Source of the DNA: an uncultured Candidatus Binatia bacterium
GTDB taxonomy: Bacteria > Desulfobacterota > Binatia > Bin18
NCBI GenBank assembly: GCA_958296235.1
Contig: OY282457.1
Location: forward strand, 1,054,501 to 1,118,500
Reading direction: 5' to 3'
Length of the DNA: 64,000 nt
Each line of letters starts with the position of its first letter. Position 1 is the stretch's first letter. The position numbers and the translations under genes are program-made. Below are positions 11,004 to 12,765 of the stretch, piece after piece. Under the pieces are notes generated by a model that saw only the letters and a list, made by a program, of their open reading frames with translations, made no database searches and was not told the DNA's origin.

Positions 11004-12557
11004 TTAGGGCCCTTCGCGGTGGACGCCGGACCGGTCTCCATAGCGTTCCATTTGCGCGAACTTATTGAGCGCATTGGTGAAGGCCAAGGCGCTGGCCATA
11101 ATAATGTCGGTGTGGGAGCCCTGGCCGTTCACGGAGGCTCCATTTTTGCGCAGGAGACACGAAACCTCGCCCTGGGCATCGGTCCCGCCGGTGATGGATT
11201 TGACCGAGTAGCGCTCCAGCTTCACGTCCATTTCGGCAATCTGAGCAATCGCCTTGTAGCAGGCGTCAACCATGCCATCGCCAGAGGCGTTTTCAATCAA
11301 CTCCTCACCATTCACTTTCATCTTCACCGTCGCATGCGGAACCGCCATGCTGGATGAGGTGACATTCATATACAGCAACTCGTACTTCTCGGGGAGGCGG
11401 GCCGTTTCTTCCATCACAATCGCGATCAGGTCTTCATCGTAGACGCTCTTTTTCTTGTCGGCCAAGGCTTTGAAACGCACGAAGGCCTTATTCATATCGG
11501 TCCCCGTATAATCAATGCCCAGGAATTTCAGTCGCTCGATAAAGGCATGCCGGCCCGAATGTTTCCCCAGGACGAGTCTATTGCTGTCCAAGCCTATCGT
11601 CTGGGGCTGCATGATTTCATAGGTCAACTTGTATTTCAGAACGCCGTCCTGGTGAATGCCGGCCTCGTGGGCAAAGGCGTTATCACCGACAACCGGCTTA
11701 TTGATGGGGACGCTAATGCCGGTAATTTGAGACAGGAGTTGACTGGAGGGGTAAATCTGCTCAGTCACAATCTGGGTGCTGACATGGGAAAACACATCCT
11801 CTCGCGTTCTGAGCGCCATGACCACTTCTTCCATGGACGTATTCCCCGCGCGTTCGCCTATGCCGTTAATCGTGCACTCCACTTGGCGGGCGCCGTTCTC
11901 AATAGCCACCAGGGAGTTCGCTACGGCCAAACCCAGATCGTTGTGACAATGCGCACTCCACGTCACGTCTCTGCCGCCGGGCACTGTTTCCTGCAGATAC
12001 TGAAACAGTGCCCCAAACTGGTGGGGGATAGCATAGCCGGTGGTGTCCGGGACATTAACGGTCACCGCTCCGGCCTGAATGACCTCGCCGAAAATCTGGA
12101 CCAGAAAGTCACGGTCTGTACGAGAGGCGTCTTCGGCTGAAAACTCGATATAGTCGAGGTATTTTTTCGCATATTCGACCGCCCAGACTGCTGCGTCAAT
12201 GCACTCCTGACGACTCATCATGAGTTTATGTTTGAGATGGATGTCGGAGGTGGCGATAAAAATATGCACCCCGGGACGCCTGGCCTTCTCAACGGCCTGA
12301 ATGGAACGGCGAATATCGTCTTCCTTGGTGCGCGACAGACTCAGGACAATGGGAGCGGAGACGAGTTCGGCAACACGCCGGACCGACTCAAAGTCGCCCT
12401 CTGACGACGCGGCAAAGCCGGCCTCAATCACATCGACATTGAGCTTTTCGAGCTGTCCGGCGACCATCACCTTTTCTTCAATATTCATGGTCGCGCCGGG
12501 CGACTGCTCGCCGTCACGCAGCGTGGTATCAAAAATCCTGACAACTTCGCGTTCCAT
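11004..12557 (-). CDS. leuA: 2-isopropylmalate synthase
   Basis: LeuA condenses acetyl-CoA with 2-oxoisovalerate, the first committed step of leucine synthesis. The 517-residue protein starts with the catalytic barrel (FDTTLRDGEQSPG, residues 8-20), which holds the first metal-binding Asp. It also has the SAHCHNDLGLAVANS metal-binding His pair, NGIGERAGN, and HEAGIHQDGVLK. The C-terminal domain (about residues 390-500) is the LeuA allosteric regulatory domain, so feedback inhibition by leucine is expected. The ATG at 12557 has AGGAGGAC just upstream. The gene is preceded by a leucine leader peptide and attenuator. Its neighbour upstream is pssA, as in Deltaproteobacteria. Confidence 0.95.
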   Translation of the reverse strand: MEREVVRIFDTTLRDGEQSPGATMNIEEKVMVAGQLEKLNVDVIEAGFAASSEGDFESVRRVAELVSAPIVLSLSRTKEDDIRRSIQAVEKARRPGVHIFIATSDIHLKHKLMMSRQECIDAAVWAVEYAKKYLDYIEFSAEDASRTDRDFLVQIFGEVIQAGAVTVNVPDTTGYAIPHQFGALFQYLQETVPGGRDVTWSAHCHNDLGLAVANSLVAIENGARQVECTINGIGERAGNTSMEEVVMALRTREDVFSHVSTQIVTEQIYPSSQLLSQITGISVPINKPVVGDNAFAHEAGIHQDGVLKYKLTYEIMQPQTIGLDSNRLVLGKHSGRHAFIERLKFLGIDYTGTDMNKAFVRFKALADKKKSVYDEDLIAIVMEETARLPEKYELLYMNVTSSSMAVPHATVKMKVNGEELIENASGDGMVDACYKAIAQIAEMDVKLERYSVKSITGGTDAQGEVSCLLRKNGASVNGQGSHTDIIMASALAFTNALNKFAQMERYGDRSGVHREGP

Positions 12558-12583: not shown

Positions 12584-12614
12584 AAAAAAAGGGCTGCGAG
12601 TGTACCCGCAACCC
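12584..12614 (-). terminator. attenuator terminator of leuA
   Basis: Read on the minus strand, GGGTTGCG (12614 to 12607) pairs with CGCAGCCC (12598 to 12591) and is followed by seven T (12590 to 12584). It lies 27 bases upstream of the leuA start, too close to be a terminator for pssA alone. It is therefore read as a transcription attenuator acting with the leader peptide. Confidence 0.75.
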
Positions 12615-12624
12615 TCTCAAACAA

Positions 12625-12659
12625 GAGGCCACGGATCAGGTATTCCGCCCGTGGCCTCC
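12625..12659 (-). promoter_or_regulatory. alternative hairpin of the leuA attenuator
   Basis: GAGGCCACGG (12625-12634) is the exact inverse of CCGTGGCCTC (12649-12658). The GGAGGCC part of this stem, read on the minus strand at 12659-12653, is also complementary to GGCCTCC at 12723-12717, which lies inside the Leu codons of the leader peptide. The two pairings are mutually exclusive, as expected in ribosome-mediated attenuation. Confidence 0.65.
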
Positions 12660-12675
12660 AAGAGTCTGGTGTGCG

Positions 12676-12765
12676 CTATGCACCTCCCTCGGATCCCTCA
12701 GGCGGGATGCTAAGCAGGAGGCCAGGCAGGAGACCTGAAGTGTCAAGCTTCAGCATGTGAATCAT
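12676..12765 (-). CDS. leuL: leucine leader peptide
   Basis: This is a 29-residue open frame starting 10 bases after the pssA stop codon. Its sequence includes SGLLPGLLLS, five Leu codons out of seven (CTC CTG CCT GGC CTC CTG CTT), followed by a stop (TAG) 15 bases before the first hairpin. The Leu run coincides with an RNA segment that can pair with the downstream hairpin. This is the arrangement of a leu attenuator: a ribosome waiting for Leu-tRNA would change which hairpin forms. The ribosome-binding site is weak, and a second Met four codons in could also be the start. Expression is not shown, so the call rests on composition and position. Confidence 0.65.
   Translation of the reverse strand: MIHMLKLDTSGLLPGLLLSIPPEGSEGGA

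Follow-up and report, generated by a model that had tools for sequence, protein, structure and literature searches.

Our analysis indicates that, in this genome, the leucine biosynthesis gene leuA is very probably preceded by a transcription attenuator that works through a leucine leader peptide, a reading drawn from sequence comparison and RNA folding. The window, i.e. the whole 64,000-nt stretch of DNA that was analysed, comes from an uncultured Candidatus Binatia bacterium, and positions within it are given for the minus strand. The genes concerned lie in the order ilvN-ilvC-psd-pssA-leuA-leuB. The initial annotation had called this cluster one of Deltaproteobacterial type; the group is in fact Binatota, although Binatota genomes are often labelled Deltaproteobacteria in sequence records. 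leuA, the putatively regulated gene, is predicted to encode 2-isopropylmalate synthase (12557-11004, ATG at 12557) and has LeuA orthologues in Binatia that are 60-98% identical. Its Shine-Dalgarno sequence, GAGGAGG, is found at 12569-12563.

Between pssA and leuA we found the Leu-rich 29-codon frame and, after it, the two terminator-like hairpins that had been described there, the second with its T run. The pssA stop codon occupies 12778-12776, and the leader ORF starts 11 nt downstream, encoding the 29-residue peptide MIHMLKLDTSGLLPGLLLSIPPEGSEGGA (12765-12676, assigned from sequence and conservation). Five of seven consecutive residues are Leu (LLPGLLL), and the run GGT CTC CTG CCT GGC CTC CTG CTT (12735-12712), referred to as segment 1, would supply the control codons. 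On both strands of the window this is the sole short ORF with at least five Leu in eight residues and a strong terminator downstream, and such a combination was found 0 times in Markov-shuffled sequence (6 x 64 kb, 384 kb). Most genus-mates read LLLGLLL at the position of LLPGLLL; the window genome carries the Pro codon CCT at 12726-12724 where most of them have Leu (CTT/CTC), and its run thus has one control codon fewer. Elsewhere in the window, a small ORF at 16382-16150 (MDVKEEELIRSLLDTDPELRRHYEEH...) lies just upstream of ilvN and appears to resemble YdcH/DUF465-type proteins. No ilvB was seen between it and an elongation-factor-like ORF at 18618-16504.

A promoter was recognised upstream of the leader purely by its match to the consensus (TTGACA-18-TATAAC). 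The -35 box TTGACA (12804-12799) lies inside the 3' end of pssA, and after an 18-nt spacer the -10 box TATAAC (12780-12775) overlaps the pssA stop codon, leaving about 9 nt between the end of the -10 box and the leader ATG. Similar signals accompany leaders throughout the class: TTGAC occurs at most 75 nt upstream in 83 of 84 Binatia leaders, and among the 81 promoter-matched leaders the distance from the end of the best -10 box to the start codon is 5-11 nt in 68, with a mode of 9 nt. A Shine-Dalgarno-like motif is missing from 76/84 leaders. Because of this spacing and the lack of a Shine-Dalgarno motif in most leaders, we consider a leaderless, or almost leaderless, leader mRNA probable, both in the window and class-wide.

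In order to compare the region across the class, leuA upstream regions were collected from 130 Binatia genomes and searched for ORFs carrying four or more Leu within eight residues. Such a leader was present before leuA in 84/130 regions, a count that is partly by construction given that leaders were picked by Leu content and position; these leaders fall into 11 families, and some families are without one. Within the window's family the leader was kept in frame in 13/13 members examined. Alignment gaps in this family were multiples of three inside the leader ORF and of other lengths in the part after the stop codon. In the family leaders, a stretch containing Pro comes after the Leu run; it reads SIPPEGSEGGA within the genus and STPP, TTPP or the like elsewhere. 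Class-wide, there are two main leader forms, LLLxxPP/PS (e.g. families f8, f15, f4 and f10) and LLLSLALTxAHA (family f9). Codon choice within the leaders was distinctive as well: in 59/74 leaders the last LLL ends on CTT, a rare codon that makes up 5.5% of the Leu codons of leuA, and CTA accounts for 8.4% of Leu codons in leaders vs 2.0% in leuA. We also observed a Binatia-like leuA with a leader of the same kind on contigs L038 and L107, titled Klebsiella pneumoniae (MAG) and Candidatus Uhrbacteria; these contigs are probably mislabelled or misbinned.

Hairpin 1 (12658-12625), the putative first terminator, has a predicted energy of -24 kcal/mol and a T-rich tail, TTGTTT, and is formed by segments 3 and 4. 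Hairpin 2 (12614-12591; -16.7 kcal/mol) is followed by T7 at 12590-12584, and together they make up the predicted main intrinsic terminator (12614-12584). The full leader RNA folded better than 200 of 200 dinucleotide shuffles (z -4.6). An intrinsic terminator lies between leader and leuA in 81/84 Binatia leaders, and hairpin 1 has a full T-run in some relatives and is terminator-like in several. Covariation in the terminators comprised 5 pairs with double changes, and 0/500 shuffles were as good.

We then found a candidate antiterminator past the Leu codons. Segment 2, the 3' half of the leader ORF (CCGCCTG..GGTG, 12705-12681), can pair with segment 3, which comprises the sequence after the stop codon and the 5' arm of hairpin 1 (12671-12645). 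In the alignment of the window's family, 95% of cells were paired in this 2:3 duplex vs 26-58% when the partner was slid, and covariation was limited to 1 double change, not above shuffles. In f9 the corresponding values were 78% vs 28-45%, a measure that is somewhat favourable to f9 since its structure was set from a single sequence, and 13 double-change cells were counted there vs 5.9 +/- 2.1 in shuffles; f9 is the only family where double changes exceeded shuffles. Across 72 leaders, 2:3 was stronger than when the peptide was recoded with synonymous codons (mean z -2.1, with 39 leaders below -2), and for the window itself the effect was modest (z -1.36). As leaders pair better than their recodings, the residues conserved after the Leu codons (PP, AHA) seem to be a side effect of RNA pairing. 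Automatic consensus duplexes drawn from broader alignments failed to show most of the antiterminator, the spacer after the stop codon being misaligned there, and segment swaps between families made a weak covariation test because GC-rich motifs are common to the families. Segments 1 and 2 can also form a duplex in 13/13 family members, at -9.9 to -31.8 kcal/mol.

The initial annotation had placed the switch elsewhere, in a pairing of the Leu-codon sequence GGCCTCC (12723-12717) with GGAGGCC (12659-12653) of hairpin 1. The two are exact complements in the window. However, 7/7 pairing is confined to the genus (one member has 6/7) and drops to 4-6/7 elsewhere in the family, and the pairing has the wrong sign for an antiterminator because a ribosome stalled there would cover it. 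It was therefore rejected as the antiterminator of the starvation state, while the broader proposal of ribosome-controlled attenuation holds up in that the leader peptide and the terminator are conserved class-wide.

Full-length equilibrium folding with a masked ribosome returned the terminator nearly always, almost whatever the position of the ribosome, and was thus uninformative. Since the terminator wins at equilibrium, the decision of the switch would have to be kinetic and fall during transcription. We accordingly folded the RNA as it would stand at the moment when the 5' arm of hairpin 1 emerges. When the ribosome was placed on the final Leu codon, the probability P that the leader held this arm was 0.59-0.98 among family members, the mean being 0.84 for the family and 0.79 for f9. 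With the ribosome at the stop codon P was 0, a value that results largely from masking of the leader.

The predominance of the terminator at equilibrium is also what would be seen if pssA were simply followed by tandem constitutive terminators, the Leu-rich ORF being a by-product and leuA being reached by partial readthrough or from another promoter; the likeness of the hairpin arms, in turn, could stem from duplication of a terminator. Yet the Leu run, the frame and the promoter are conserved class-wide while the peptide ends vary, the gap of only 26 nt from the T-run to leuA leaves no space for a further promoter there, and the antiterminator is maintained. Taken together, these findings make constitutive termination very unlikely.

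Even with 2:3 formed, hairpin 2 with its T7 would on its own block leuA in either state. A pairing that would disarm it can be drawn between segment 4, the 3' arm of hairpin 1 (12635-12623), and segment 5, the 5' arm of hairpin 2 (12618-12604). It can form in 13/13 family members at -17 to -22 kcal/mol, with 98% of alignment cells paired vs 37-57% when slid, and two pairs show double changes (4/500 shuffles were as good). The similar arms of the two hairpins account for part of this pairing. In silico, 4:5 would pre-empt the final terminator in the way of a his-type relay, and similar pairings were found in f15, f13, f4 and part of f8. A simpler reading is that attenuation works by the first switch only (2:3 vs 3:4), with hairpin 2 as a leaky or backup terminator and 4:5 without a role; f9, which has a single terminator and yet keeps the 2:3 switch, speaks for it, as does f10, where no good 4:5 pairing was found. 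Weighed against this are the complete conservation of 4:5 in the window's family with its two double-change pairs and the expected block by hairpin 2. We consider the single-switch reading possible but the less probable one, and somewhat favour a second, his-like relay switch in which 4:5 disarms hairpin 2.

The 2:3 and 4:5 pairings are thus supported computationally; leader translation, ribosome stalling and the response to leucine we infer. In the proposed mechanism, transcription would start from the promoter at the end of pssA, at the leader AUG or a few bases off. With little charged tRNA-Leu available, the first ribosome would stall on segment 1, allowing segment 2 to pair with segment 3; segment 4 would then be free to pair with segment 5, so that neither terminator would form and leuA would be transcribed. 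When leucine is plentiful, the ribosome would reach the stop codon and break 2:3, and hairpins 3:4 and 5:6 would terminate transcription.

Known RNA elements offer two further explanations. leu genes are under T-box control in some bacteria, and a T-box covariance match over the region had been named in advance as one of the observations that would overturn the attenuator. None was found: the T-box model RF00230 matched 0/58 Binatia genomes, while the same search was positive in 5/14 control genomes. Rfam gave no relevant match at the window locus or at the loci of 13 relatives, its matches within the window being two tRNAs only; the sub-threshold matches to mir-9201 and WT1-AS were dismissed as chance. 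In the literature searched, we found no paper joining T-box, leuA and Deltaproteobacteria. At the sensitivity of the models a T-box is refuted, and we regard it or another known riboswitch as extremely improbable. The actinobacterial LEU element, in which a leucine leader ORF likewise lies upstream of leuA, forms a pseudoknot whose stem connects the Leu run with the Shine-Dalgarno sequence of leuA (PMC1262725). Translational control of this kind, in place of termination, could be imagined for the window alone, where CTCC in the Leu codons could base-pair with the leuA Shine-Dalgarno sequence GAGGAGG. In f9, however, the Leu codons CTGCTGCTT are unable to pair with AGGAGG, and the Binatia leaders, unlike the LEU element, are followed by intrinsic terminators with T-runs in nearly every case. 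A LEU-type mechanism is accordingly even less likely than constitutive termination.

Three families, f2, f12 and f17, lack a separate leader ORF before leuA. In these genomes the distance from the end of pssA to a terminator (CTCCCG...CGGGAG followed by a T-run) is 26-34 nt, and leuA begins 27-72 nt beyond the terminator. Our analysis revealed that TTA and CTA make up 49% of the 205 Leu codons in the PssA tails, vs 5% of 688 in the pssA bodies of the same genomes and 3% (4/126) in the pssA tails of other families (35 genes); the difference between tails gives a Fisher p of 1e-21 with relatedness ignored. From body to tail, third-position GC goes from 0.86 to 0.48 for Leu and from 0.72 to 0.64 for other residues. 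Two tail positions are TTA in 19/21 and 18/21 f2/f17 genomes, with CTA replacing TTA in f12. Example loci are L024:3082-3262 and the other 20 f2/f17 loci (alignment A4) and, for f12, L136. The last codons of the tail, ACGGGAG, can pair with CTCCCGT, the 5' arm of the terminator (97% of cells paired vs 42-63% slid, with one pair double-changed), and compared with synonymous recoding the signal was weak in f2 (mean z -1.4) and absent in f12. Translation near a terminator represses termination (PMC4824070), and ribosome stalling in the tail would accordingly raise termination if these loci had no active antiterminator. We see about an even chance that the recoded PssA C-terminal tail (FLLYTLSGPLLW...RRRE) serves as the leader peptide in these families and that the ACGGGAG:CTCCCGT pairing switches on leuA. 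Otherwise, the TTA/CTA codons may be rare codons used for membrane-helix insertion, or may derive from a common ancestor of f2, f12 and f17. A promoter within the tail was rejected as an explanation for the TTA codons, because f12 retains TTA/CTA without a TATACT-like box. If the tail does act as a leader, the class would have arrived at a shared control in two alternative ways, by a separate leader and by the PssA tail. In f6 (L013, L015, L016, L020, L023), a terminator CTCCCGCTGGC...CGCGGGAG, beginning TTCCCG in L016, lies between pssA and leuA; neither a leader ORF nor TTA enrichment was found at these loci.

In summary, leucine attenuation by a leader peptide is known elsewhere in bacteria and, as far as the literature searched shows, is new for the Binatota lineage, our search having found no paper on attenuation in Binatota. 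These results would extend leader-peptide control of leucine synthesis to a class of mostly uncultured bacteria, by means of a conserved RNA that lies outside every Rfam family and whose translation probably initiates in a leaderless manner. The class would also provide a natural comparison of switches with one terminator, with two terminators and, should the PssA tail prove to be a leader, with the leader inside an enzyme, and such a comparison would open the origin of leader peptides to study by sequence.

The leuL attenuator of Escherichia coli and Salmonella has a leader peptide with Leu codons, uses less common Leu codons for control and has a terminator before leuA. The Binatia system shares these three traits. 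We found no sequence relation between the two (no Rfam match), and the Binatia system differs in a promoter that abuts the ORF with a probably leaderless start, in the two terminators of the window's family, and in its gene context. In the enterobacterial his attenuator, six segments pair as A:B, C:D and E:F for termination and as B:C and D:E for readthrough, a layout matched here by 1:2, 3:4 and 5:6 vs 2:3 and 4:5. In contrast to his, leucine would be sensed here, and hairpin 1, the counterpart of C:D, itself resembles a terminator in several relatives. peTrpL of Sinorhizobium meliloti has a leaderless start, and its leader ORF likewise lies at or next to the 5' end of the transcript. This attenuator leader peptide is reported to concern tryptophan instead of leucine (PMC7298713). 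The branched-chain amino-acid operon of Staphylococcus aureus is likewise reported to be controlled by a leucine-rich attenuator peptide (PMC5794164); this lineage is unrelated, and the likeness noted is that of the leader peptide.
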